A stretch of DNA of 64,000 nt from assembly GCA_029882215.1 (NCBI GenBank), contig JAOULC010000005.1, positions 1 to 64,000 of the forward strand. Direction: 5' to 3'. The notes beneath the pieces were generated by a model. The model had not been told where the DNA came from and did not search any database. It saw only the letters and a list, made by a program, of their open reading frames with translations. Of the stretch, positions 1 to 17,073 are shown piece after piece; within the stretch, counting starts at the first letter, position 1; the number at the start of each line of letters is the position of its first letter. The DNA comes from Gammaproteobacteria bacterium (lineage in GTDB: Bacteria; Pseudomonadota; Gammaproteobacteria; SZUA-229). A program made the translations under genes and the position numbers.

Positions 1-121
1 TTAACATATTGGCATTAATACCCAGATTGCTGGCTATCTGGGTAACAGGAATATCTGATTGTTGGACTAACCGAACAGCCTCTTGTTTGTATTCCCGACT
101 GTATTTTCTTCGTTTTTGCAT
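1..121 (-). CDS. IS3-family transposase OrfA, N-terminal part only
   Basis: Forty residues are visible before the window edge. They contain KYSREYKQEAVRLV followed by PVTQIASNLGI, the typical start of the helix-turn-helix protein (HTH_Tnp_1) encoded by the first frame of IS3-family transposons. OrfA binds the terminal repeats, and the catalytic DDE part is usually made by frameshifting into OrfB, which is not in the window. The ATG at 121 has a good ribosome binding site (AGAGGTGG) just upstream. Whether the element is intact cannot be judged. Confidence 0.8.
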   Translation of the reverse strand, partial: MQKRRKYSREYKQEAVRLVQQSDIPVTQIASNLGINANML

Positions 122-171
122 TTTCCACCTCTGAGTGTATTATCACTCTTAATGAGATGTCCGTCATGTCA
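1..171 (-). mobile_element. edge of an IS3-family insertion sequence
   Basis: The left edge of the window holds the first bases of an IS element that continues outside. An OrfA start lies at 121, and beyond it (to about 166-171) is the outer end of the element. Read on the minus strand the end begins TGACATGACGGACATC, which fits the TG-initial terminal repeats of IS3-family elements. The exact terminus is uncertain because the second repeat and any target duplication lie outside. The element stops only about 30 bases from the end of the neighbouring defence gene, which still looks full length. Confidence 0.7.
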
Positions 172-199
172 GGGTAGAACCATTATTACATCTTCATTA

Positions 200-3100
200 C
201 TAAACAATATTTTCTCTTAGCATGTAACCAACTGCTGATCCTTTTTCAATTAAATAATTCAAAATCACTATCATTTTATCTTTTATTTCCTTTTTCTTTT
301 TTATAGTTTCTTTGTTTTTGAACGTGTAAATCCTTGCGAATTTTTCCAAATAGAAAACGGTGTTTTCTACAAGCTTTTTATCAACATAGTTATTATTATT
401 TTCCAATATTTGCGAAAGCCAAACGACTCCATCATCTATATATGCATTGCCGACATTATCAAGTAGTTTTGCAATTGAATATAATGCTGACGGACAATGC
501 CCAATCGATTTTGATATATCATTAAAGAATTTAGCATCATTGCTTTTGAAAGTATGCCAGTCTTTCGCAGTGTCCTTCCATTGCACTCGTGCAAACAAGT
601 AGCTTTCAACAATGCTATCTGTATGCCAATAACCATCACCACCCTTGCAGATATCCTCAATTTTTTCTTTAAGAATATTCCATACCACCCAAAATTTTTC
701 GTACTCTTCTACTTTATCTTCTGCCGACACGAACTCTTGTAGTAGTTCTGCAATACTCTCTGAACTATTGAAGTTATGAAGAAATGGTTGCAGATAGTTT
801 TCTATTTCTGATTCGTTGAGACTTAAAATAAAGTAAGCATACTTACTTAGAAATTCATGTCTAATTGTGTAATCGACTTTATCATCCCTATTATTATTAA
901 GTAATTTATCTGCAAATATAGCAATTATTTGTTTTGCAATATTTTTATGTTCTTCATTATCTGTCTTAGTTGGGATAATCTGAAATGCTGTTCTTAAATT
1001 AGATAAGTCAAGTTTACTAAGTTCGCCAATTTTACTTAGCACTATTTTGTTATCAATAACACTTTGGAATACATCATCATTTTCTTCTAAAAGCTTGTTT
1101 ATTAATTGATCAAATTTAAATCCAAATGTTCCATTTTTGTAGTTTTCCTGTCTAACCCTATCTATTAAATCATCATACACTTGAGAAAGATATAAATAGC
1201 CTAACAACAACGAATGGGCGTCTGTTGGGTACTTATCCCACATATCATGTAGTGCCAGCATGGAAAACATATTGTATCTTCCTGTAGACAACATACCACC
1301 TGCTGGAGATGTGTTAAACAATGTTAGCAAAAGAATAGTTTTTATATTTCCTTTATCTTCTGGAAAATGGACAAACAATTTTGAAAGTATACTAATTGCT
1401 GGCTGAGTACCATCGGAAATTTGATACTGGTAATTTGGTGAAAATTGCAACATTGAAAACTCTAAAACAATATCCTTGCAAAATTGTTTTTCTGACTTTG
1501 ATAATAGATCAATGTAATCTCTTAACAAAACTGAACACACGTACGCTGGTATAGATCGATTAAAAAGAGAGTAAGTATCTTCTTCATTTATACCTGTCTC
1601 GCTATTCTTTTTAGTTGCTTCATCTTTAAGTGTAGCAACAATATCTTTCGCTTCTTTAAGAGCAAGCTTAGGTTCTTCTTCATATTGAGTATATTCTTTA
1701 TGCTTTTCGTCACCACTATATTTGTATTCAGCCCATATTTTTAATGATGTATACCTCATAGGCTCAGCGCTTTTCTCTAATGACTTTTCGCTATACTCTT
1801 TTAATTCTGGTTCAAGCTTTGGATTAAAATTAATTGCAACTCCACCTTCCGCTTCTTCTGTAGTAATATCCATTTTTCTTCTATCCATTCTAGCAAGAAA
1901 AAGTCTCCATACTTTGTCGGATTCTGTTTGCTCTGTCTCGTCAGGTAGTTCACTATAGTAGCTATCCAATATTTTCCATAGTGCCTCCTGTCTATCCTTC
2001 GAATCTTGTTCATTAACCCCTTCATTTCTAAAACATTGATAATTCAAAAATTGGTTTTCCAATGACAGCTTTCTATGTTTGTCATCACAAGCTTTAATTC
2101 TTTCATTTTCATACATTTGATTTTGAGCAATAGAACCAAAATTATTCTGTAACATTAAAAGCTGATGTTTATGGCTTGCATCCAACGTTAGCCTAGTGGT
2201 GTCGAATAAAAAGAATTCCTTTGTTCTAAATAGCTTGCTAGCTACATTGAATGTCTTGTCGGGATACGCAAGCACTATACTTGCCACTACAGCAGATATT
2301 GATGCAGATACAGTATTTCTAAGAAGATACTCTAACCAATTATCTAATGTTTTAGTATCAGTAAACTCTCCTACTTCTAAGAAGAACTTTTCTAACGCCA
2401 TATGCATTGATTCCAATACATCAGGTAATACCTGTGTCCCTCTATAAGCGCACCACAGCCTATTGCATATATATTGCTTTATTGTTGTCTCTTTATCGAT
2501 GAATACATCCACTTCTTCAGCTTCATATTTTGCAAATTCGGATTTAGCAAATTTCTCAACTGACTTATTTGTAAAACCCAATATGAAATCTACAGTTTCT
2601 TTTAATGCACTTTTGAGAAGCCAGTAAACAGGTGTTTGGTATGCACTAGCTGGATGATAGTGTGAGTAATTTTCATTGATACCAAAGTATGGCTCTACTC
2701 CATGTGAATAATCGGAATAGCGACTTTCTTTAGGTGGAGTACGTGTCCAAAATAACTCAGCTAACTTTAGAAGTTGATTTGGGTGTGTCGATGCAACATT
2801 AACACCCTCTATTTTAGTTAAGAGAAATTCTGATAGATCATGATAAGGATCTCTATGATTTTTCCATTCGTTTTTAATAATCTCATCGAATATTGAGGAT
2901 AGCTCTTCCTTTATTTCCGATGAACCATACAGAATAGTTTGCAAAAGATGCTCTTTAGTTTCTCCGCGTGAAAAATATACATCTTCACTAAGTGCCCATT
3001 GGTAATATTTTAGCGCAATCAAGCTTGAATACCTGCTTGTTGAACCAATTTTTATTTTAGTGTTCCAGTCATTAATTACAGGTAAGATAAAATTAATATT

Positions 3101-4942
3101 CTGTATGCCAATATCTTCCAAATTATCAAATACGAATTTAATTAACGCTTCCCATCCTTTTCCTTTTGGCTTTGTTAAAACATACTCTAATGTAAACAAA
3201 TTTAGATTACTAATGCCTAGCTGCATAAAAAACTCGCCGTCAACTTCTTTGCACGCAATCCTTAATATAAACGTTAGCCTTTTTAGTAATAATTGGTTTT
3301 CTTCTAATAGTTCACTTTTAAATATATTAAAAAATGATTCAGAATAATCAGAAAGTAAAACTGAAACCAAAATCTCATCTTTCCAAAATCCCGCTACCTC
3401 ACTACTTCCAATAACCTCTACGATAAACTTTTTAATATCGTCATTAGCCAATAATAGGTTTTCAGATAGCCAACTTCTTAGGCTTCGACGAACAGGTAAT
3501 GATTGCCCTATATTTTTAAAAAACTCTTTGTTGTTACTTTTTTTTAGGTACTCGCTTTCAATTATTTTCTCTAACGCCCATTCTTCATATATATCATGTG
3601 TTATAAAATAACCAACAGTCTCATAACCTAGTATTCCATCTCTAGTCAATTCATCATCTAATATACCCGCATCACAATTTGGCGTAATAAAAAATTGACC
3701 AGAATTAGCTCTTTCATATGCAATATTTAAAAAACATCTTTCTCTTTCTGGTTTGGATTTTCTTATGTTTTTATTCCATAACTTATTTTTGAATTCCTTA
3801 TAATTTAGCTCTTCACTACTATCATAGAACTTTAAATATTCATTAAGATAAAAAGGATTCTTTATCAACTCCAGTAATTTTTCATCTTCAGGTAAAGAAA
3901 ACTCTTGTTCTTTCGATATAGCATTTATCTCTTCCAGTTTTAAAGTAGCAACCCCAACATTTAAAGGTGCAATATTGTAGAATTCAAAAAATTGACAGTT
4001 TAAGTCTTCTAAATAGTTATCGCGCGTTGTAAAAATCACTCTCCACCCGCTTTTAATTAGAAGCGATAGAAATTCTTTGAATGGATCTAAGTTTCTTAGA
4101 TCCAGCAGTTTCTCAGCAGAATCTATAACAATAATTTTATTATCGTCGTTCTGTAAAGCATTAACAAACTCATAAAAGGTCAAATCGGAAAATAAATCGT
4201 TTATATTTCTCAATTTGAATTCTGTTGCTTTAAATGCAAAAAATGGTATTTTATTAACACTTTCTTCGTATAGCTTCTTAATGATTACTGTCTTTCCAAC
4301 CCCTCCAACACCACTTACAATAGAAATCTGTTGAGATCTATTTTTTAATTTCTCCAACTGTTCACTTCTATCAATCTCAAAATTATTGCCATTAAAATCA
4401 ATGCTGGTTTGTATTCCAAACAAGATATTTTGAGTATGATTCTGTAATTCTTCTAATAAAGAAACTATGCTCTTATCTAATGTAAAAAAGTGTTTTGCTA
4501 AAATTTCGTTTTTTTCACAAACAAACTCTGATTCAAAAAAACTACTAGTTCTCCATTCCATATTAACACTAAGCTCTTTGGCTTTTGCTTCGATCTCTTT
4601 AAGCCCTTTTGGCTTCTGACCTTTATACTGCCCCCACTCCTTGTTAGTGTACAAATGTAATGTTGTTATATTTGGATAATCTTTTTTAGCATCAACAATA
4701 GCTTTTAATAACTCTGCTTTATGATTTGAAAGAGCATTATCATAAAATTTTGCTTGCCAACCTACAGTTTCATCACCTACTACAACTGGATCAGTTTCAA
4801 TTGCTGATTGATTTTTATACCTAAAAATACCGTAAGGAATGTCAAACTCTTTACAAAAAAGCAAATAGCAAAACCACTCAAAATTGTTTTGTGGATTCTC
4901 GTTGAACTTTGCTTTAAATGTGTCCCAATTAGGTTTAATCAT
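200..4942 (-). CDS. Avs4-like anti-phage STAND ATPase with N-terminal Mrr-type nuclease
   Basis: This is a 1580-residue protein. Residues 1-140 look like a PD-(D/E)xK nuclease of the Mrr type: an acidic segment ETD at 49-51, then GWQAKFY at 61-67, which supplies the Q-x-K part of the catalytic core. A P-loop follows, with Walker A GVGGVGKT at 211-218, a Walker B-like IIVIDSAE around 270-277 and VIFTTRD at 302-308. The remaining 1200 residues are a long helical region, as in STAND proteins where it senses the trigger. Order and total length match the AVAST type 4 protein Avs4, which is known to recognise a phage portal protein and then cleave DNA. The family call rests on architecture and recognised motifs, not on an alignment. 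The gene is much more AT-rich than the core genes, sits between an IS and an integrase, and appears complete and single-gene. Confidence 0.75.
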   Translation of the reverse strand: MIKPNWDTFKAKFNENPQNNFEWFCYLLFCKEFDIPYGIFRYKNQSAIETDPVVVGDETVGWQAKFYDNALSNHKAELLKAIVDAKKDYPNITTLHLYTNKEWGQYKGQKPKGLKEIEAKAKELSVNMEWRTSSFFESEFVCEKNEILAKHFFTLDKSIVSLLEELQNHTQNILFGIQTSIDFNGNNFEIDRSEQLEKLKNRSQQISIVSGVGGVGKTVIIKKLYEESVNKIPFFAFKATEFKLRNINDLFSDLTFYEFVNALQNDDNKIIVIDSAEKLLDLRNLDPFKEFLSLLIKSGWRVIFTTRDNYLEDLNCQFFEFYNIAPLNVGVATLKLEEINAISKEQEFSLPEDEKLLELIKNPFYLNEYLKFYDSSEELNYKEFKNKLWNKNIRKSKPERERCFLNIAYERANSGQFFITPNCDAGILDDELTRDGILGYETVGYFITHDIYEEWALEKIIESEYLKKSNNKEFFKNIGQSLPVRRSLRSWLSENLLLANDDIKKFIVEVIGSSEVAGFWKDEILVSVLLSDYSESFFNIFKSELLEENQLLLKRLTFILRIACKEVDGEFFMQLGISNLNLFTLEYVLTKPKGKGWEALIKFVFDNLEDIGIQNINFILPVINDWNTKIKIGSTSRYSSLIALKYYQWALSEDVYFSRGETKEHLLQTILYGSSEIKEELSSIFDEIIKNEWKNHRDPYHDLSEFLLTKIEGVNVASTHPNQLLKLAELFWTRTPPKESRYSDYSHGVEPYFGINENYSHYHPASAYQTPVYWLLKSALKETVDFILGFTNKSVEKFAKSEFAKYEAEEVDVFIDKETTIKQYICNRLWCAYRGTQVLPDVLESMHMALEKFFLEVGEFTDTKTLDNWLEYLLRNTVSASISAVVASIVLAYPDKTFNVASKLFRTKEFFLFDTTRLTLDASHKHQLLMLQNNFGSIAQNQMYENERIKACDDKHRKLSLENQFLNYQCFRNEGVNEQDSKDRQEALWKILDSYYSELPDETEQTESDKVWRLFLARMDRRKMDITTEEAEGGVAINFNPKLEPELKEYSEKSLEKSAEPMRYTSLKIWAEYKYSGDEKHKEYTQYEEEPKLALKEAKDIVATLKDEATKKNSETGINEEDTYSLFNRSIPAYVCSVLLRDYIDLLSKSEKQFCKDIVLEFSMLQFSPNYQYQISDGTQPAISILSKLFVHFPEDKGNIKTILLLTLFNTSPAGGMLSTGRYNMFSMLALHDMWDKYPTDAHSLLLGYLYLSQVYDDLIDRVRQENYKNGTFGFKFDQLINKLLEENDDVFQSVIDNKIVLSKIGELSKLDLSNLRTAFQIIPTKTDNEEHKNIAKQIIAIFADKLLNNNRDDKVDYTIRHEFLSKYAYFILSLNESEIENYLQPFLHNFNSSESIAELLQEFVSAEDKVEEYEKFWVVWNILKEKIEDICKGGDGYWHTDSIVESYLFARVQWKDTAKDWHTFKSNDAKFFNDISKSIGHCPSALYSIAKLLDNVGNAYIDDGVVWLSQILENNNNYVDKKLVENTVFYLEKFARIYTFKNKETIKKKKEIKDKMIVILNYLIEKGSAVGYMLRENIV

Positions 4943-5068
4943 CTTACCGCGTCATCTTCAATTTATCTGGTTTAAAATATGTGAAACTTGAACACCTAAA
5001 TAACCACATAGGTTAGCTAGTGTTATACACTTTTAATACAATCTGTTTGTATATTAACATAGCTACAG

Positions 5069-6610
5069 CTATTCGTTTCGGCCAATATCTAGCAACATAC
5101 GCCCACCTTCAGTATCACGTAAATCTTTAGTAAATTGACTTTTAATTACATCAACATCAACATGGCCGTAATGATTTTGAATAAAATCTATTCCACACCC
5201 CATAACTTTTGACAGATTAAAAACATCTGCGCCTTTATAAAGTTCAAACGTTGCATAAGTATGTCGTAGGCAATAATAAACTATTTTTTTATTGCTTTTG
5301 TTTAAACCAGTACCTTCAAGCATAGCCTGCCATTCTCTGTAATAAACCGACTTATTAATCTGCATACCTGTATCATTATCAACAAACAAATAATCATCGC
5401 TTTTTGTATGCTTTGATATCTTTTTAAGCATCACAAATGGATTACCTAATCGACTAATAGCTGTTCGTGCTGTACCCGTTTTTGTTTTACTTGCTGGTAA
5501 ATTAATTTTGCAGCGTTTTTTTACAACTTGCCTATCATTTTCTATTACTGTCTCTGTATATGGTTCGATATCACGCCACTGTAACCTGCGAGCTTCTCCT
5601 AAACGTATACCTGAACTTGCTAGTATTAATGTAAATTGATATATAAAGCGTCTTTGTTCTGCTTGCTTATCACTTTTTACATGTTTTGCAGTATGCCAAC
5701 TTTGCATATACCTATATATTGTCGTCCACTCCTTCGGCATCAATGCATCCCTGTTTATCTTTTCACCACTCTTTTTAATCTTTTCCCATTCACCAAAACG
5801 TGGTGCATATCCCCTGTGTATAAAGCCTTTCTCTTTAGCAAAATTATATAATGATTTAATTGTTCCTCGTTCACCATACAACGTCATCAATTTAACATTA
5901 GGTGCAGCTTCTTTTCTAAATAAACGGTAATCTTCAAACTTGTCTTCACTAATCTTTGTTAGCTTTGTATTCTCGCCAACAAACCTTAAATAATGATTCA
6001 TTCTTGCTTTTAGCGTGCCAACAAACTGTGATGTGATTGAACCCTGTTTATATCGTTTTTGCTGTTGATCTATAAATGCATCTGTTAGCTCTTTTGCTTT
6101 TCGATCAAAAATCGGCTCTTTATTTCTTATTTTAATTTGGTAATCTAAGTAAACTTCTTTTGCTCTTTCAATCGCTAATTCTGTATTTTTAGTGCGAAGT
6201 GACTTCTTAAGCGCCTTTTGCTCTTCCCTAATCCAAATATACACTTGCCAAACTTTGCCGCTTTGCGCAACCCTAAAAATTCTAACATCACCTTCATATA
6301 ACTCACGCACGTCAGTAAACTTATTGCCTTTGCTTTTGCGTGGCTTTCTTTTGCGTTTTGCATTTACCGTTTCAGCACTCTGTGCAGCTAATATCTCTTT
6401 CCAATACTTTGTCGCTACACGCTTAGCGCGTTCTAAGTCTTTTTGTCTTGTTGATTTACGTATGTAAGCTTGCTCCGTGCCATTCCACAACCTAAATTGC
6501 CATACATCTTTACTTTGCTTTGTCCTATAAAGCAAAAACTCGCTGCCGTGCACTTCTACTTTTTCAGTAATAAAGTGCTCGTCAGCGAGTTCTGTTTTTT
6601 TTGCTGTCAT
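5069..6610 (-). CDS. tyrosine recombinase (island integrase) next to guaA
   Basis: This 513-residue site-specific recombinase probably integrates and excises the island at the 3' end of guaA. The catalytic domain shows the box I arginine R336 in SSGIRLGEA, lysines around 375-377, box II as YCLR (446-449) and the likely nucleophile Y481 in NHYGHV. Two usual histidines are replaced: Y446 in box II, and C472 where LGH is normal (here MGC), a pattern seen in some proteobacterial integrases. Residues about 24-73 and 108-159 are two copies of one N-terminal DNA-binding-like domain joined by a Lys/Arg-rich linker at 85-96. The gene reads from guaA into the island and is AT-rich. Confidence 0.9.
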   Translation of the reverse strand: MTAKKTELADEHFITEKVEVHGSEFLLYRTKQSKDVWQFRLWNGTEQAYIRKSTRQKDLERAKRVATKYWKEILAAQSAETVNAKRKRKPRKSKGNKFTDVRELYEGDVRIFRVAQSGKVWQVYIWIREEQKALKKSLRTKNTELAIERAKEVYLDYQIKIRNKEPIFDRKAKELTDAFIDQQQKRYKQGSITSQFVGTLKARMNHYLRFVGENTKLTKISEDKFEDYRLFRKEAAPNVKLMTLYGERGTIKSLYNFAKEKGFIHRGYAPRFGEWEKIKKSGEKINRDALMPKEWTTIYRYMQSWHTAKHVKSDKQAEQRRFIYQFTLILASSGIRLGEARRLQWRDIEPYTETVIENDRQVVKKRCKINLPASKTKTGTARTAISRLGNPFVMLKKISKHTKSDDYLFVDNDTGMQINKSVYYREWQAMLEGTGLNKSNKKIVYYCLRHTYATFELYKGADVFNLSKVMGCGIDFIQNHYGHVDVDVIKSQFTKDLRDTEGGRMLLDIGRNE

Positions 6611-6764
6611 TTATTTCTGCCAATAACCGTTTGTAGTTGCAAACAACTTGCATGTACAAATTTAAATATAGCAGAAAATCAATAACTTATTTGTAACTTG
6701 CGAAAATATTGCGTGTAGCCATATATTTCTTAATTACTTATAAATCAATTAGTTAAGTGACTTA

Positions 6765-6800
6765 CTTTGTAGTTACATTACTCCCATTCAATCGTGCCTG
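6765..6800. other. probable attachment site region at the 3' end of guaA
   Basis: The integrase gene begins 168 bases beyond the guaA stop codon, and base composition changes sharply here. The 3' end of guaA is a known integration site for tyrosine-recombinase islands, which usually restore the end of the gene. The crossover core is therefore expected within the last guaA codons (the stop codon is at 6778-6780). No second copy of the guaA end was noticed in bases 1-6700, so the other junction is presumably outside the window. The exact limits are a guess. Confidence 0.4.
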
Positions 6801-8358
6801 GCGGTTTCCCGGTAACATCATAAACCACGCGTGAGATGCCATCGATTTCATTAACGATACGCCGCGATACCAGATCAAGAAAATCATAGGGTAAATGAGC
6901 CCAGCGCGCGGTCATAAAATCAATCGTTTCAACTGCTCGCAGGGAAACAACGTATTGATAACGACGACCATCGCCGGTTACGCCAACCGATTTAACCGGC
7001 AAAAATACCGTAAACGCCTGAGAGACACCATGATATAAATCGTGCCTAAGAAGTTCTTCAATAAAAATATGGTCAGCAAGGCGCAGTAGGTCCGCGTATT
7101 CTTTTTTAACTTCACCCAGAATACGAACACCCAGACCAGGTCCCGGAAATGGGTGACGATAAACCATATCATGCGGCAGACCTAGTTCAACACCCAGTTT
7201 ACGCACCTCGTCTTTAAATAACTCCCGTAACGGCTCGCATAATTTAAGCGTCATGTAATCCGGCAGACCACCCACATTATGATGCGACTTAATTAAATGC
7301 GCCTTGCCAGTTTTTGCGCCGGCTGATTCAATCACATCTGGATAAATCGTACCCTGAGCCAGCCATTTTGCATTTTTCAATTTGTTGGATTCTTCTTCAA
7401 AGATATCAACAAATAAATTACCAATAATCTTACGCTTTTTCTCGGGATCATTTTCACCTTTAAGCGCTGCCAGAAAACGTTCTTCTGCATCGACACGGAT
7501 CACTTTAACACCCATGTTTTTTGCAAACGTCGCCATCACCTGATCGCCTTCTTTATAGCGCAGCAAGCCATTATCAACAAACACACAGGTTAATTGATCA
7601 CCAATAGCTTTGTGCAATAAAGCCGCTACGACAGATGAATCAACACCACCGGACAAACCCAGTATGACTTCATCACTGCCTACGTCTTTACGTATTGTTT
7701 CAATCGCATTATCAGCAATATTACTGGCATTCCATAACGACTCACAACCGCAAATGCCGTGCACAAAGCGCTCAATAATCCGCTGACCTTGCTGAGTATG
7801 GGTTACTTCCGGGTGAAACTGCAGACCGTAGAATTTTTTCTCTTCATTAGCAATACCTGCAATCGGTGCAGAATCGGTCGAAGCCATCAAACTAAAACCA
7901 TCCGGTAATTCGGTAACATGATCACCATGGCTCATCCAGACATCGAGTAAACCGAATCCTTCGTCACTCACCTCATCTTCAATATCTTTTAACAGTGCGG
8001 TATGGCCGCGCGCGCGCACTTTTGCAAAACCGTATTCGTGCTGGTCGGCATTTTCTACCTTACCACCCAGCTGTGCTGCCATGGTTTGCATGCCGTAGCA
8101 AATACCCAGCACAGGCACTCCAAGATCAAACACTGCCTGTGGCGCCACCGGTGCATCCACCCCGATTGTGCTTTCCGGACCACCGGACAAAATAATACCC
8201 GATGGTTTAAAGTTTTTGACATCTTCATCGCTGATGTCCCAGGCATAGAGTTCACAATACACCCCTGCTTCACGAATTCGACGAGCTATCAACTGGGTAT
8301 ATTGAGAGCCAAAATCGAGAATTAATATACGATCACTGTGAATATTTGCTTGAGTCAT
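6778..8358 (-). CDS. guaA: GMP synthase (glutamine-hydrolysing)
   Basis: GuaA converts XMP, ATP and glutamine to GMP in the cytoplasm, the last step of guanylate synthesis. The 526-residue length is normal. The N-terminal class I amidotransferase has its nucleophile C87 in LGICYGMQ and the partner motif FHPEVTHT. The ATP-pyrophosphatase domain has the P-loop GLSGGVDSS, and the protein ends in the conserved PPGTIEWE. The gene lies downstream of guaB in the same direction, as in most gammaproteobacteria, but a terminator hairpin sits between them. Its 3' end borders an integrated island and keeps an intact reading frame. Confidence 0.98.
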
Positions 8359-8393
8359 GAATTATCCGGTTCGATAAAAAAGAGGGAGTAAAC

Positions 8394-8418
8394 TAAAAAC
8401 GCAGCCCGAAGGCTGCGT
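8394..8418 (-). terminator. intrinsic terminator between guaB and guaA
   Basis: On the minus strand the arms ACGCAGCC and GGCTGCGT enclose a TTCG loop and are followed by a short T run. The hairpin lies just past the guaB stop and 36 bases before the guaA start, so it should reduce read-through from guaB into guaA. Confidence 0.8.
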
Positions 8419-8434
8419 CCTGAGCTTTAATTAT

Positions 8435-9898
8435 TTACGATTCGATACGATAGTTGGGTGCTTCTTTGGTGATGGTCACATCGTGTACATGGGACTCACG
8501 CATACCAGCCGAAGAGACTTTAACAAACTCAGGTTTGCTGCGCATTTCTTCCATGTTTTTGCAACCCACATAGCCCATGCTTGAACGCACGCCGCCCATC
8601 AGCTGATGCACAATATTCACCATCAGGCCTTTATAGGCTACCCGGCCTTCGATACCTTCCGGCACCAATTTTTCTTCACCGTCTTTATTGTCCTGGAAAT
8701 AACGGTCGCTGGAACCCTGAGCCATCGCACCTAATGAACCCATACCACGGTACGACTTATATGAGCGGCCCTGAAACAGCTCTATTTCACCCGGCGCTTC
8801 TTCGGTACCAGCAAACATACTACCAACCATAATGCTGTAAGCTCCTGCTGCCAGCGCCTTTGCCATATCGCCAGAAAAGCGCACACCACCGTCTGCAATC
8901 AGCGGCACACCAGTGCCTTCAAGTGCCTGCGCCACATTATCGATAGCAGAGATTTGTGGCACACCAACCCCGGCAATAATCCGTGTAGTACAGATTGAAC
9001 CCGGACCAATACCTACTTTAACCGCATCAGCACCTGCGGCTACCAGATCTTTTGCCGCCTGGCCGGTTGCAATATTACCACCGATTACCTGAACCTCAGG
9101 AAAATGCTCTTTAACCCAGCGTACCCGGTCAATCACACCTTGTGAATGACCGTGCGCGGTATCCACCACAATGACATCAACACCTTCAGCGACCAGCGCG
9201 CTAACGCGCTCTTCAGTATCTGCGCCTGTACCCACAGCAGCGCCGACGCGTAAACGGCCTTGCTCATCTTTGCAGGCATTGGGGAAATCATCAGACTTCT
9301 GAATATCTTTCACCGTGATCATGCCGCGTAACGCGAACTGATCATTAACCACCAGCACTTTTTCAATCCGGTGTTTGTGCAATAGCGCCGCGACCTCTTC
9401 ACGACTAGCGCCTTCGGAGACTGTTACCAGCTTGTCTTTTGGTGTCATGATTGAAGAAACAGGATTATCCGGCTGGGTCTCAAAACGCATATCACGACTG
9501 GTCACAATCCCGACCAGTTCTTCACCATCGACCACCGGTACACCTGATATCCTGTACTCCTGAGTAATCGCCAGAACATCACGAATAGAGGCACTTGAGT
9601 CAATCGTAATAGGCTCTACAATCACGCCACTTTCATATTTTTTTACATGACGTACTTCAGCTGCTTGCTGGGCAGGCGTCATATTTTTATGGATGATGCC
9701 TATCCCACCTTCCTGAGCCAGTGATATGGCTAATCTGGACTCGGTGACCGTATCCATGGCCGCTGATAACAAAGGAATGTTCATTCTGATCTTTTTCGTC
9801 AGCTGGGTGCCTAAATCCACTTCTTTCGGCACCACAGTAGAATGGGCTGGAATCAATAAAACATCATCAAAAGTCAAAGCTTCCTGAACAATTCGCAT
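8435..9898 (-). CDS. guaB: inosine-5'-monophosphate dehydrogenase
   Basis: GuaB oxidises IMP to XMP with NAD+, the committed step to GMP. At 487 residues it has the normal size. The TIM barrel starts with [10 protein letters not shown], two CBS domains occupy about 95-205, and the catalytic cysteine is C303 in GSICTTR. The flap and C-terminal motif SSMGYVG are present. It is the first gene of the guaBA pair, with a clear promoter 30 bases upstream of the ATG at 9898. Confidence 0.98.
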
Positions 9899-9929
9899 GG
9901 TTATCCCGTGTATATAAGAAAATCCTATA

Positions 9930-9958
9930 ATTATAGAATCAAGCGCCTGAAAGGTAAA
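9930..9958 (-). promoter_or_regulatory. sigma-70 type promoter of guaB
   Basis: The minus strand shows TTTACC (9953-9958), a 17-base spacer and a perfect TATAAT (9930-9935), ending about 30 bases before the guaB start. The -10 box lies inside the 12-base palindrome CTATAATTATAG (9925-9936), which could be incidental or an operator. Confidence 0.65.
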
Positions 9959-10121
9959 CGATAAAAAATGATTTTACTTTCCAGTCAAGTTCGTTAGAAT
10001 CATGTAGCCGAATATTTTAAGAATATAAAAACCGGTGTTTAAGAAAGGCAAGGTTAATTAATAACTTATTAATTTCTAATAATGCCAAATTACTACAAAA
10101 ATCAGTATGTGAGGAGTTCAA

Positions 10122-10487
10122 ATGATTCAGAAAGCGACCTTAGCTGGCATCATCTTAGCAGGCTTAGTAGGCCTTAGCGGTTGTTCAGTTGCAAAAGTTG
10201 GCAAATATAATGCTGATGAAGAAGGCTACAAAATGGCACTGGCCGATACAACAGCTGTTGTTGATGCAGCCAAAAAAGCAGGTGCAGAATGGCGCGATAT
10301 TCGCTGGCCTAGCCCTAAGAAAGAAAAAGATGTTAAAGCCCACGCCAAAACATTATTTGGTAAAGCCAGTGCAGCGGCAAAAGATGGTGATTATGAAACA
10401 GCTATCAAACTGCTGAACAAAGCAACTAAACATGCTGAAATTGGCATGCAAGTCGCTGCAACTCAGAAAGATGCAGGTCCTCACTAA
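10122..10487 (+). CDS. small lipoprotein resembling SoxXA-binding protein (SoxK)
   Basis: The product has 121 residues and a lipoprotein signal ending in LSGC, so C21 would be lipidated. The mature part is helical and charged. It carries an E-W-R-D motif at 56-59 and the pattern KASAAAKDGDYETAIKLLNKA, close to the SoxXA-binding protein SoxK, which assists the SoxXA cytochrome in thiosulfate oxidation. The match is a family pattern I recognise, not an alignment. No other sox genes are in the window, so a different periplasmic role is possible. A strong ribosome binding site (GAGGAG) precedes the ATG, and a strong terminator follows, so the gene is a single unit. Confidence 0.6.
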   Translation: MIQKATLAGIILAGLVGLSGCSVAKVGKYNADEEGYKMALADTTAVVDAAKKAGAEWRDIRWPSPKKEKDVKAHAKTLFGKASAAAKDGDYETAIKLLNKATKHAEIGMQVAATQKDAGPH

Positions 10488-10510
10488 TTAGTGATCTGTA
10501 TTTTTCTTAG

Positions 10511-10537
10511 AAAAGCCGGGCTAGCCCGGCTTTTTTT
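10511..10537 (+). terminator. intrinsic terminator after the small lipoprotein gene
   Basis: The arms GCCGGGCT and AGCCCGGC form an uninterrupted stem followed by seven T. It isolates the lipoprotein gene from xseA. Confidence 0.88.
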
Positions 10538-10589
10538 ATGCCAGCAATATATACTTTGTCCTATCAATACTTCCACCTAACGATCATAC

Positions 10590-11969
10590 ATGTCACTAAT
10601 AAACGAAGACCGCACGCCTCTCAGCATTAGCCAACTCAATAACATGGTTAAAGACTTGCTGGAGAACAATTTGCCGCCCTTATGGGTTGAAGGCGAGATT
10701 TCAAATTTTGCCAAACCCGCTTCTGGCCATCTGTATTTCAGCCTGAAAGATTCAACATGTCAGGTTCGCTCTGTGATGTTTCGTAACCGCAGCATGTTGC
10801 TGGACTTCAAACCTGAAAACGGCAGTCAAGTTCTGGCTAAAGTTAGAATCGGTTTTTATGAAGCACGCGGTGAATTTCAGCTGATTGTCGATCGATTAGA
10901 AGAGGTTGGCGACGGCCAATTACAACAGCGGTTTGAGCATCTAAAGAAGAAACTTGCCAGCGAAGGCTTGTTTAATGCTGAGCACAAACAGCTCTTACCT
11001 GAACTACCTCAACGCATTGGTGTAATCACTTCAGCAACCGGGGCTGCCATTCGTGATGTTTTAAGTGTGTTAAAAAGGCGCTTCCCGGCAATCCCGGTGA
11101 TTATTTACCCGGTTCCTGTTCAGGGTGACAATGCCGCACCGCTGATTGCAGAGATGATCCGCAAGGCTGAGCAGCATGCCCTGTGCGATGTTTTACTACT
11201 GGTGCGCGGCGGTGGCTCACTTGAAGATTTATGGGCTTTTAATGAAGAAATTGTCAGCCGCGCTATTTTTGCCTGCCAGCTGCCGATCGTCAGTGGTGTC
11301 GGCCACGAAGTCGATATCACGCTGGCCGATTTTAGCGCTGATGTCAGAGCCGCAACACCCAGTGCAGCAGCAGAACTGGTTGTACCGGATCAGTTTAGCT
11401 ATCAGCAAAGTTATGACTATTACAGTGAGCGTCTTCAACAATTAATCACCACCCGACTGGGCCGGCAACAGCAACAATTAAACTGGCTGCAGACGCGCTT
11501 AAATCAGCTGCATCCACAAAGCCGACTGGCACAACATGAAACCAGACGCCTTGAGCTCACGAAACGCTTACTCAGTCACTGGGGAAAGCTGATTAGCCTC
11601 AAAAAATCAGATCTGAAGTTCAGCCTGATGCAATTACAGCAGCAATCACCTCGGCGTCTGGCCGCTTACCGTCAGCAACAATTAAAGCAGCTCATACAAC
11701 AGGCAAAACTCGGAATTCAGAAACAACTGCAAATGCGCCAACAAAATCTGGCCTCAAGTGCACGTACCTTGCACGCTCTCAGCCCGCTGCAAACCCTGTC
11801 TCGCGGCTACGCTATCGTCAACAAAGAAAACAGCCGGGAAAACATTGTCTCCAGCCAGCAACTTCAAACCGATGAGATTGTTAAAATCCGCTTTGATTCA
11901 GGTACCGTCAGATCCAAGGTGATTACAATAGAAAACGATAACACAGCGCTTTTATCAGACAAAGAATAG
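10590..11969 (+). CDS. xseA: exodeoxyribonuclease VII large subunit
   Basis: XseA is the catalytic subunit of exonuclease VII, which trims single-stranded DNA in mismatch repair and recombination. The 459-residue protein has the N-terminal OB fold (LWVEGEISNFAKPASGHLYF), the catalytic segments GVITSATGAAIRD, RGGGSLEDLWAFNEE and GVGHEVDITLADF, then a Gln-rich coiled coil typical of the subunit. The small subunit xseB is not adjacent. Confidence 0.97.
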   Translation: MSLINEDRTPLSISQLNNMVKDLLENNLPPLWVEGEISNFAKPASGHLYFSLKDSTCQVRSVMFRNRSMLLDFKPENGSQVLAKVRIGFYEARGEFQLIVDRLEEVGDGQLQQRFEHLKKKLASEGLFNAEHKQLLPELPQRIGVITSATGAAIRDVLSVLKRRFPAIPVIIYPVPVQGDNAAPLIAEMIRKAEQHALCDVLLLVRGGGSLEDLWAFNEEIVSRAIFACQLPIVSGVGHEVDITLADFSADVRAATPSAAAELVVPDQFSYQQSYDYYSERLQQLITTRLGRQQQQLNWLQTRLNQLHPQSRLAQHETRRLELTKRLLSHWGKLISLKKSDLKFSLMQLQQQSPRRLAAYRQQQLKQLIQQAKLGIQKQLQMRQQNLASSARTLHALSPLQTLSRGYAIVNKENSRENIVSSQQLQTDEIVKIRFDSGTVRSKVITIENDNTALLSDKE

Positions 11970-12023
11970 CGGCTTTCTTGGCAAAAACATGCTATCTTTA
12001 GCCGCTTAAATAAAACATATAAC

Positions 12024-12052
12024 TTGCATTAAGCGCGCTAATTTGATAAAAA
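12024..12052 (+). promoter_or_regulatory. probable sigma-70 promoter of dksA
   Basis: TTGCAT (12024-12029), a 17-base spacer and TAAAAA (12047-12052) lie 43 bases upstream of the dksA start. The arms AAGCGCG and CGCGCTT around the -10 region could also form a weak hairpin ending xseA transcripts. Confidence 0.5.
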
Positions 12053-12094
12053 AACGCGCTTCTTTACTGACATAGCTAGCACGGAGTACCCCTA

Positions 12095-12526
12095 ATGGCT
12101 GACAATTCGTCGTATCGCCTCAATTCTATCGAACCTTATAAGGAAAAAAAGGGCGAGGAATACATGAATGAAAATCAGATAGCGCATTTCACACAAATTC
12201 TCGACGCCTGGAAAGACGAATTGATGCATGAAGTTGACCGTACTGTTGACCACATGAAAGATGATGCGGCTAACTTTCCTGACCCGGCTGACCGCGCCTC
12301 TCAGGAAGAAGAATTCAGTCTTGAACTGCGCACCAGAGACCGTGAACGTAAGCTGATTAAAAAAATCGATAAGACACTGGAAGAAATCAGCAGCGGTGAT
12401 TATGGTTATTGTGAAACCTGTGGTGTAGAAATCGGTATTCGTCGGCTTGAAGCCAGACCAACCGCCACACAATGCATTGACTGCAAAAGCCTCGATGAAA
12501 TTCGCGAAAAGCAGCTCAAAGGTTAA
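12095..12526 (+). CDS. dksA: RNA polymerase-binding transcription factor DksA
   Basis: DksA enters the RNA polymerase secondary channel and, with ppGpp, adjusts rRNA and amino acid promoter activity. The 143 residues include the coiled coil with the acidic tip D-P-A-D (63-66), a four-cysteine zinc site (C106, C109, C127, C130) and the conserved [17 protein letters not shown]. The start at 12095 is chosen because E. coli DksA shares the residues before the internal Met at 24, such as [14 protein letters not shown]. gluQ follows, the usual gammaproteobacterial pair. Confidence 0.98.
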
Positions 12527-12549
12527 ACCATACCTCACGCTGATGTTTA

Positions 12550-12575
12550 AAAAAGCCGAACCTTCGGCTTTTTTT
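12550..12575 (+). terminator. intrinsic terminator after dksA
   Basis: The arms AAAAGCCGAA and TTCGGCTTTT surround a CC loop and run into further T residues. It ends six bases before gluQ, so gluQ is probably expressed by read-through. Confidence 0.88.
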
Positions 12576-12580
12576 ATGCC

Positions 12581-13504
12581 ATGAATCTGACTAATAACGA
12601 ATACCGGGGCCGCTTTGCCCCCTCACCCAGTGGTCAGTTACATTTCGGCTCATTAGTTGCTGCCATCAGCAGTTATCTACAGGCCAAATCTCAACAGGGA
12701 CAGTGGCTGCTGAGAATTGAAGATGTTGATCAGACTCGCGAGGTCGCCGGCTCGGCCAGTCACATACTGTCCACTCTTGACAAACTCGGCTTTGAATGGG
12801 ATGGCAGCATCATCTATCAAAGCCAGCAAACAGCACGCTATGCCGAATACCTGCAAACATTGATTGATAAAGACCTGATTTATGCCTGTGACTGCAGCCG
12901 CAGCAAGCTAAAACAAAACAGCAGCGCAGCTGCAATATATCCAGGCAACTGTCGGCTAAAAAAACACCCCTTAACCAGCCCACACGCACTCCGCTGCCGG
13001 GTCTCGACCGAATCCTTATTTATTAAGGACCAAATTCAACCCGCGTTCTCGGTTAATCTGCAAGATGACTGTGGCGATTTCATCATAAAACGACGTGACC
13101 AGTTTTTTGCCTATCAGCTGGCCGTGGTTGTCGACGACCATGAACAATGCATTACTGATATCATCAGAGGCGCTGATTTATTGAGCTCAACACCGCAACA
13201 AATTTATTTACAAAAGCAGCTGGGATTTTCACAGCCTAGCTACGGCCACATTCCGGTTGCCATGCACCAGACCGGTCTAAAACTCAGCAAATCTCATCAA
13301 GACTTAGCTCTTGGCCATTATAATCCGCTTGCTGTTATGCAACAGGCGTTGGTATTTTTAAACCAGAGCCCGCCAGCTGAACTGGCTCACGTTTCACTTT
13401 CAGAGTTCTGGCAGTGGGCTATAAATAACTGGCATCTGTCAGACATACCCAGGCTAGCGGAGAAGGCATTTACGCTGGATATCCCCTTCACCGATACGTT
13501 ATAA
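12581..13504 (+). CDS. gluQ: glutamyl-Q tRNA(Asp) synthetase
   Basis: GluQ is a truncated glutamyl-tRNA synthetase that attaches glutamate to queuosine at the wobble base of tRNA(Asp). The 307 residues contain the catalytic fold with APSPSGQLHFGSL (HIGH-type motif), the KMSKS-type LKLSKS, and a zinc site C103, C105, Y120 and C124. It lacks the anticodon-binding half of GltX, as expected. It directly follows dksA. Confidence 0.96.
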   Translation: MNLTNNEYRGRFAPSPSGQLHFGSLVAAISSYLQAKSQQGQWLLRIEDVDQTREVAGSASHILSTLDKLGFEWDGSIIYQSQQTARYAEYLQTLIDKDLIYACDCSRSKLKQNSSAAAIYPGNCRLKKHPLTSPHALRCRVSTESLFIKDQIQPAFSVNLQDDCGDFIIKRRDQFFAYQLAVVVDDHEQCITDIIRGADLLSSTPQQIYLQKQLGFSQPSYGHIPVAMHQTGLKLSKSHQDLALGHYNPLAVMQQALVFLNQSPPAELAHVSLSEFWQWAINNWHLSDIPRLAEKAFTLDIPFTDTL

Positions 13505-13600
13505 TTATAAATTATGCATTACGACAAATCATTGATGCTACCGACATCACGCAGTATGCTTACAACCTATCAACCAGCCGTTCTAAGAGGACTTCATTAA

Positions 13601-15565
13601 ATGAGCTCAAATAATATTGAATCGGGTTTAATAGAAAACCGCCTGTTTGCACCCAGTGAAGAATTTACTAAAAATGCCCGAATCAATGCTGAGAAGCTTG
13701 CCGCATTACATCAACAAGCCGACACCGATTACACCGGTTTTTGGGCACAGCAAGCCAATGAAATGCTGGACTGGCACAAGCCCTTCTCCAATGTGCTGGA
13801 TGACTCTAATGCCCCTCTTTATAGCTGGTTTAATGACGGTGAACTTAACGTCTCGTATAACTGTATTGATCGCCACCTGACAAATAACGCCAACAAGAAC
13901 GCCATTATTTTTGAAGGCGAACAAGGCGACACAACATTCATCACTTATCTGCAATTACATCAGCGTGTGTCCGCATTTGCCAACGCCCTTAAAGAGCGCG
14001 GGATTAAAAGTGGTGATCGGGTGGTTATTTATATGCCAATGACACCAGAAGCCGTTATTTCAATGCAGGCCTGTGCGCGTATTGGTGCAATTCATTCTGT
14101 CGTTTTTGGTGGTTTCTCTGCCGATTCATTACGTGACCGCATCAATGACGCTGGCGCAAAAATGTTAATTACCGCTGATGGCGGACATCGTGGCGGTAAA
14201 ATTGTCGAATTAAAATCAGCCGCTGACAAAGCACTTGAAGGCGGCTGCCCTAGCATTGAGAGCGTCATTGTCTATCAGCGCACGCAGCATGATATCAAGA
14301 TGCAGGCTGGCCGTGATATCTGGTGGCACGATGCCGTCAGTGAGCAAAGCGACCACTGTGAGCCGGTTTGGGTAAATGCAGAACATCCACTATTTTTACT
14401 CTACACCTCGGGCTCAACCGGCAAACCCAAAGGCATTCAGCATTCCAGTGCCGGTTATTTACTGGGCGCCGCTGTCACTAATAGCTGGGTCTTTGACCTG
14501 AAAGATGATGATGTTTTCTGGTGTACCGCGGATGTTGGCTGGATCACCGGCCACACCTATGTTGCATACGGGCCATTAGCTGTGGGCAGCACCATCGTCA
14601 TTTACGAAGGCGCACCGACCGTACCTGACGCCGGTCGTTTCTGGAAAATGGTACAAGATCACAAAGTCAGCGTGTTTTATACCGCGCCTACCGCGATCCG
14701 CGCTCTGATGAAACTGGGTGACAATTTCCCTAATGCCTACGATCTGTCATCTTTACGCCTGCTGGGTACTGTCGGCGAACCAATTAACCCGGAAGCCTGG
14801 ATCTGGTATCACGAAGTCATTGGCAAAGGTAAATGTCCGATTGTTGATACCTGGTGGCAGACCGAAACCGGCAGTAATATGATTGCTCCGATTCCCGGTG
14901 TTGTGGCTACCAAACCCGGTTCATGCACCAAAGCCCTGCCCGGCATTATGGCTGATGTGGTCGACGAAGACGGCAACAGCATCAGCGAAGCCAATCGAGG
15001 CGGTTATCTGGTCATTACCAAGCCGTTCCCGTCTATGCTAAGAACAATCTGGGGTGATGATGAGCGCTATAAAGACACCTATTACCCTAAGTTCGATGGA
15101 CGTTTTTATCTGGCCGGTGACAGCGCACGTAAAGATGCCGATGGCTACTTCTGGATCATGGGCCGAATCGATGACGTATTAAACGTATCCGGACACCGCC
15201 TTGGTACGATGGAAATCGAATCCGCACTGGTTTCACATGAACTGGTTGCAGAAGCCGCTGTTGTTGGCAAGCCACACGAAGTGAAAGGTGAATCAATCTT
15301 TGCTTATGTGGTACTGAAAGGCGAACGCCCTGCCGGTGGTATTGATGAAGAACTCACCAAAACCTTACGCAACTGGGTCGGTGAACAGATTGGTGCGATT
15401 GCCAAACCGGATGAAATTCGATACGCCGACAACCTGCCTAAAACCCGCTCAGGAAAAATCATGCGTCGCTTATTACGCACTATCGCAAAAGGTGAAGAAA
15501 TCACTTCCGACACCTCAACACTGGAAAATGAATCCATTCTCGATCAGCTACAGGGCAAAGCATAA
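13601..15565 (+). CDS. acs: acetyl-CoA synthetase (AMP-forming)
   Basis: Acs activates acetate to acetyl-CoA through acetyl-AMP. The 654-residue protein has the AMP-binding loop [19 protein letters not shown], and the C-terminal [11 protein letters not shown] with K619, the lysine whose acetylation switches the enzyme off in relatives. An AAGAGGAC ribosome binding site precedes the ATG. The exosortase gene starts five bases after the stop, so acs may share a transcript with the protein-sorting genes. Confidence 0.98.
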
Positions 15566-15570
15566 AACGA

Positions 15571-17073
15571 ATGCCATTTAAACTAAGGAAGGTTTTCTCT
15601 GCTGCTCCACCCGCGCCAATGTATTTAGTTGGCGCGGGTATTTTCCTGACATTCATCGCTCTTTACTGGCATAGTACCAGCAACCTGTTCACTCTATGGA
15701 ATCAGGATGATACCTACTCACACGGCTTTATAATGCCGCTGTTAACTGTCTTTTTACTGACAAAACAAACTCACCATTTTTCAAGTATAAATCTCAAACC
15801 GGCTTTTTTTCTACTGCTGCCATTAGCACTGGGTATTGTGCTCTGGGTATTTGCCAGCATTACCGACACACGCACTATCGAATTAACCCTGTTACCACTG
15901 ATCTTGTTTTTGCTCTATAGCAGCATCGGTGGCTACAAACTGGCAATCTTATTAACTCCCTCGTGCTTCCTTTTGCTTTTAGCGGTGCCAATATGGGGCA
16001 TCCTGACCCCTATTTTTCAGATAATGGCGGTTAACGTCAGTGAGTTTGCACTTAAATTAACCGGCATACCTGCCTATATACATGGCACCACCGTCAGTAT
16101 TCCTCCCGGTGTATTTGAAATTGAAGGTGGTTGCAGTGGTATCAGATACCTGATCGTCACCTTAGTGATTGGAAGCTTTTACTCCTTCAGTACATTTAAA
16201 ACACGCCGCGCTACCATCATATTGCTGCTAGCCTCTTTCCTGTTGCCGGTTGTTTTCAACTGGGTTCGCATATATATCATTATATTAATCGGTTACATTA
16301 GTGATATGAAAAGTGAGTATGTATCTGACCACGCAAACCTAGGATGGGTTTTATATGGCATCAGTCTGATACCGTTATTTTTTATCGCCAGAAAAATAAC
16401 CCTCAGTGAAAAAGATACCCCACACGATAAAGTTCACACCAGCACATCAAGACCAAACTACCCTCATTACTTTCTGCTGCTGCCGCTAGCACTACTGATC
16501 TCGGGACCATTATTCATCGCTTATCTTGAGCATTCCGATAAAAATACACTGAATAACATTTCTCTTGCCAGCGCCTCACTGCCGTGGCAGGGGCCAATAC
16601 ATTACAACGAATGGCAGCCAGGCTACCTCGGCGCAAGCCTAAAGGAAAATGGCCTGTACATTGGCACAAATAATACAGCGGATGTTTCATTACATATTTA
16701 TTATTATGGACAAGAGAGCCAGGACGCTGAACTGATCAATGAACTGAATACTATTGCCGGCACAGATCAGATAATATCGCAAAGAACCATCAAGCTAGAA
16801 ACACATGATGTTGTAGAGACCCGCATTATCCATAATCATAAAACACGGCTTATCTGGCACTGGTATTTTATTAACAAGCGCTACACAACCCGGCCACTGA
16901 CCGCAAAAATATTACAATCAATGGAACATATTTCAGGTAATATAGACTCATCATTGATTGCAATAAGCACTGAATGCCACTCTCAATGCAGAGATGAAAA
17001 TAAAATATTAGAAGACTTTATAAAAAAGCACGAGAACAAAATAATAACAACATTCTCGGACAGTACAGGATAG
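15571..17073 (+). CDS. xrtA: exosortase A fused to an EpsI-family domain
   Basis: Exosortase A is a membrane cysteine transpeptidase thought to cleave and sort proteins bearing a PEP-CTERM tail. Residues 1-275 contain about eight membrane segments, the conserved YSHGFIMP near 49-56 and the catalytic triad C188 (GGCSGIRYL), R233 (NWVRI) and H254 (DHANLGW). From about 300 the chain becomes a soluble EpsI-type domain (LPWQGP, LHIYYYGQE), fused here to make 500 residues. It forms a tight cluster with prsT (7-base gap). Confidence 0.93.
   Translation: MPFKLRKVFSAAPPAPMYLVGAGIFLTFIALYWHSTSNLFTLWNQDDTYSHGFIMPLLTVFLLTKQTHHFSSINLKPAFFLLLPLALGIVLWVFASITDTRTIELTLLPLILFLLYSSIGGYKLAILLTPSCFLLLLAVPIWGILTPIFQIMAVNVSEFALKLTGIPAYIHGTTVSIPPGVFEIEGGCSGIRYLIVTLVIGSFYSFSTFKTRRATIILLLASFLLPVVFNWVRIYIIILIGYISDMKSEYVSDHANLGWVLYGISLIPLFFIARKITLSEKDTPHDKVHTSTSRPNYPHYFLLLPLALLISGPLFIAYLEHSDKNTLNNISLASASLPWQGPIHYNEWQPGYLGASLKENGLYIGTNNTADVSLHIYYYGQESQDAELINELNTIAGTDQIISQRTIKLETHDVVETRIIHNHKTRLIWHWYFINKRYTTRPLTAKILQSMEHISGNIDSSLIAISTECHSQCRDENKILEDFIKKHENKIITTFSDSTG

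Follow-up and report, generated by a model that had tools for sequence, protein, structure and literature searches.

The locus described here raises the question of whether the long reading frame at one end of a 64,000-nucleotide stretch of a gammaproteobacterial contig (hereafter the window) encodes a member of the known anti-phage family Avs4, or instead a new kind of nuclease-STAND sensor. Avs1 to Avs4 are nucleases that are triggered by the terminase or portal of a phage, or by another phage protein, Ksap1 (PMC12931631). Judged by its sequence, the gene is an intact, ordinary Avs4 and thus belongs to a known family. The features on which the analysis rests are as follows.

200..4942, minus strand: avs4, AVAST type 4 (STAND) anti-phage nuclease, 1580 aa, intact, matching NF041815 and PDLC02169, and 8dgf_A over the full length
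4433..4942, minus strand: N-terminal Mrr/Cap4-like nuclease part, approximately residues 1-170, with candidate catalytic residues E49 and Q63-x-K65
3443..4432, minus strand: predicted STAND NTPase core and winged-helix-like part, approximately residues 171-500, from sub-cutoff AAA_14/NB-ARC matches, conservation and the Foldseek match to 8dgf
203..3442, minus strand: predicted all-helical, repeat-like C-terminal sensor, approximately residues 501-1580, from the AlphaFold model and the Foldseek match to 8dgf
5069..6610, minus strand: integrase of the tyrosine recombinase type, 513 aa, lying upstream of avs4 and read in the same direction
6778..8358, minus strand: intact guaA, encoding GMP synthase, whose 3' end forms the near boundary of the island, with homology stopping at 6777/6778
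1..123, minus strand: start of a transposase frame, from its translation (MQKRRKYSREYKQEAVRLVQQSDIPVTQIASNLGINANML...), presumably IS3-type and OrfA-like, cut by the contig end

Family assignment

The reading frame begins with ATG and continues for 1580 codons without an internal stop (window positions 200-4942, minus strand). Its product aligns with the whole of the NCBIfam Avs4 equivalog profile NF041815 (profile positions 1-1579 of 1579), scoring 2082.6 bits against a curated cutoff of 1500 bits, with the E. coli reference Avs4 from plasmid pEQ011 reaching 2066.8 bits in the same model. The PADLOC Avs4 model PDLC02169 gave 2284.1 bits, and the sole PDB sequence match was 8dgf_A, "ATP-binding protein Avs4" (1805.7 bits, residues 1 to 1579), an entry that Foldseek lists under the title "Avs4 bound to phage PhiV-1 portal". 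No other defense family scored for the protein in the NCBIfam and PADLOC profile searches. The search of the NCBIfam AVAST models proposed in the earlier note therefore bears out its identification of the protein, Avs4 being both the best and the only strong profile in either collection. All of the motifs on which that identification had been based could be located (E49-T-D51, G61-W-Q-A-K-F-Y67 and G211-V-G-G-V-G-K-T218), and because the profiles match over the full length of the protein, chance can be ruled out as their origin.

Conserved residues and predicted structure

The nuclease part contains a QxK motif, Q63-A-K65, and its residues E49, W62, K65, F66 and Y67 are invariant across every aligned relative, including three Clostridium proteins in which the remainder of the chain is different. 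By analogy with Mrr-type nucleases, E49 and Q63-x-K65 are candidate catalytic residues; we take residue roles in the window protein to follow those of Mrr-type nucleases and STAND NTPases. In the NTPase part we identified the P-loop (G211-T218), a Walker B-like IVID at 271-274, TTR at 305-307 and HDIYEEW at 449-455. Of these, G211, G214-T218, D274 of the Walker B-like motif and H449-W455 do not vary among the true Avs4 proteins.

The earlier note had also called for a comparison of a predicted structure with known Avs4. Owing to its size, the protein was folded with AlphaFold as two halves, residues 1-500 (mean pLDDT 62.8) and 470-1580 (mean pLDDT 72.0, almost all helix), using alignments with a depth of 7. 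For both half-models, which are of modest confidence, 8dgf was the top Foldseek match, with query-normalized TM-scores of 0.33-0.36 for the first half and 0.53 for the second. The C-terminal half aligned with 8dgf over 1115 columns (E 3.9e-64, 49% identity), followed at weak E-values by HEAT-type karyopherins and CAND1. Given the modest pLDDT, the shallow alignments and the low TM-scores, these models contribute little that the sequence match does not already show. They nevertheless agree with what is expected of the C-terminal part, a long helical sensor homologous to the one in E. coli Avs4, although the "TPR-like" label originally given to it needs correction, and this part is best called, on the strength of the model, a helical-repeat sensor.

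Known and newly found relatives

One close known counterpart, E. coli Avs4 (8dgf, compared through WP_000240574.1 from plasmid pEQ011), shares with the window protein its domain order and its nuclease and NTPase motifs. The two proteins are of similar length (1587 and 1580 aa) and 50.9% identical end to end. The stretch following residue 115 is shorter in ours, the E. coli chain carrying an insertion there. Their genomic settings differ, the E. coli gene residing on an F-type conjugative plasmid and the window gene on a chromosomal island at guaA. Avs3 (8dgc, bound to phage PhiV-1 terminase), in contrast, shows only a weak structural likeness to the N-terminal half (Foldseek E 1e-4) and gave no PDB sequence match; it is longer and senses terminase.

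Full-length Avs4 proteins with 53-57% identity were found in Clostridia (Oceanirhabdus and Clostridium sp. LS) and in Syntrophaceae, Ignavibacteriales, Desulfobacteraceae and Vogelbacteria bins, with a partial relative in a Methylococcaceae bin and Avs4 at 51% identity on E. coli and Salmonella plasmids, most of them conjugative. The motifs are kept in the relatives from Clostridia and from the Desulfobacteraceae, Methylococcaceae and Vogelbacteria bins. The nearest relatives found, from Candidatus Vogelbacteria (L007) and from bins filed as Syntrophaceae and Ignavibacteriales (L002 and L004), are 57% identical over the full length and carry the same motifs. The Vogelbacteria gene adjoins a serine recombinase and genes that, from their translations, we take to be a type III restriction-modification system, whereas the window gene lies beside a tyrosine recombinase at guaA. 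Other relatives likewise adjoin defense genes: pEQ011 carries an AbiGi gene next to avs4, and in Oceanirhabdus sp. W0125-5, SIR2-TIR (Thoeris-like) and AbiH-like genes (L003:4898-7608) stand directly upstream of avs4 in a locus close to a serine recombinase and phage-like genes.

Two further observations emerged from this survey. L002 (12179 bases) and L004 (12182 bases) encode an identical Avs4 protein and, since they are also of nearly equal length while bearing different bin labels, at least one of them is probably misbinned. Separately, three Clostridium proteins of about 1451 aa (L009:8001-12353, L010:8001-12356 and L011:1563-5915) combine the Avs4 nuclease with a different NTPase and sensor. 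Their identity to the window protein is approximately 41-48% over the first 238-279 residues, and the two that were scanned, L009 and L010, scored 242 and 235 bits with the Avs4 model, whose cutoff is 1500. These proteins possibly represent an undescribed fusion of an Avs4-type nuclease to another STAND sensor.

Identity to E. coli Avs4 is not uniform along the window protein, being 58% for residues 1-170, 58% for 171-500, 55% for 501-900, 46% for 901-1300 and 45% for 1301-1580. With a sensor half that is less conserved, at about 45%, the range of triggers could differ in detail. A stronger version of this argument would have the window protein as an Avs4-family member whose sensor has drifted away from the classical portal fold to another phage component, and the Clostridium proteins demonstrate that modular exchange behind an Avs4-like nuclease does occur. 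The homology, however, is continuous to the last residue, with no domain replaced, and 434 positions, many of them in the C-terminal half, are invariant across seven full-length relatives, so that we regard such a shift as improbable. In favor of a nuclease-STAND family outside Avs, or of a defense gene in decay, one can cite the generic Pfam AAA_14 and NB-ARC matches, which are weak and below cutoff. Such a reading is hardly credible: the equivalog and PADLOC Avs4 scores, with no rival defense family scoring, rule out a non-Avs STAND family at the sequence level, and the frame, P-loop and nuclease residues are all intact.

Genomic context

The avs4 region has a GC content of 30-34%, compared with approximately 45% for most of the window, in keeping with its earlier description as AT-rich. 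The neighboring recombinase had been recognized correctly: the frame at 5069-6610 matches Pfam Phage_integrase with 39.4 bits (cutoff 27.1). The description of avs4 as standing alone was overstated, as the contig ends 199 bases past its stop codon, within the IS3-like frame, and isolation of the gene cannot be claimed on that side; the integrase upstream was confirmed. A search of the assembly for further copies of this IS-like sequence found none.

Homology to relatives ends at 6777/6778, at the last base of guaA (its stop codon). On contig C83, from this assembly, and on G036:C4, from another genome of the genus, guaA is followed by genes that, from their translations, we take to be tadA and rsgA, and these represent empty sites. 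The adjacent recombinase at the guaA 3' end and the empty sites in relatives uphold the proposal that avs4 is island-borne, with the far end of the island outside the contig. In the window the end of guaA reads GAATGGGAGTAA. The GIsul2 island also uses the guaA 3' end, at GAGTGGGA (PMC9376610), which makes this a known type of insertion site. A search of window positions 1-6777 with the last 22 bases of guaA returned no repeat within 7 mismatches, the far end presumably lying beyond the contig. Nor did tadA lead to it: within the assembly, tadA gave a single strong match, which lies on C83 beside the other guaA.

This second guaA bears on the assembly itself. Window positions 6778-15756 and C83 are 76% identical over 9 kb, with guaB, guaA and xseA in the same order. 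Because one assembly, with a reported contamination of 4.64%, holds two orthologous guaB-guaA-xseA regions, the host bin probably combines two related species.

Among the 54 genomes of the order, avs4 is found in only one, with no relatives in the others and no second copy in the assembly, from which it follows that the gene was probably acquired horizontally. The near-absence of the integrase elsewhere in the order is consistent with this, a full copy occurring only in the source genome and one further genome having fragments that reach 78% identity. A phage-borne origin was considered and rejected: the phage collection yielded one weak, partial tblastn match (21.7% identity), and a scan of viral contigs gave no confirmed match.

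Discussion

Taken as a whole, it is very probable that the window encodes a functional-looking Avs4, a phage sensor and effector in a single protein, delivered by a recombinase to the 3' end of guaA, in which a helical part recognizes the portal, the STAND module oligomerizes and the nuclease cuts DNA. We base the trigger, oligomerization, DNA cleavage and defense on homology to E. coli Avs4 (8dgf) and on the behavior described for Avs1 to Avs4 collectively (PMC12931631), and by that analogy the protein most likely senses a phage portal, oligomerizes through its STAND module and thereby activates its DNA-cutting nuclease. In this model, a recombinase integrating at the guaA 3' end would have brought avs4 into the chromosome. 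When a tailed phage infects the cell, the helical C-terminal part would recognize its folded portal protein, and the STAND NTPase would then drive assembly of an oligomer; the known Avs4 oligomer is a tetramer. Assembly would bring the N-terminal Mrr-like nuclease domains together to degrade DNA indiscriminately, with the phage genome destroyed or the infected cell dying as a result.

The family is already known, and the window protein changes no concept. As a further full-length member, with 51-57% identity to the relatives found, it widens the known spread of Avs4 and documents carriage of avs4 on a guaA-type island. It also offers a diverged sequence with which the sensor residues required for portal recognition may be mapped.
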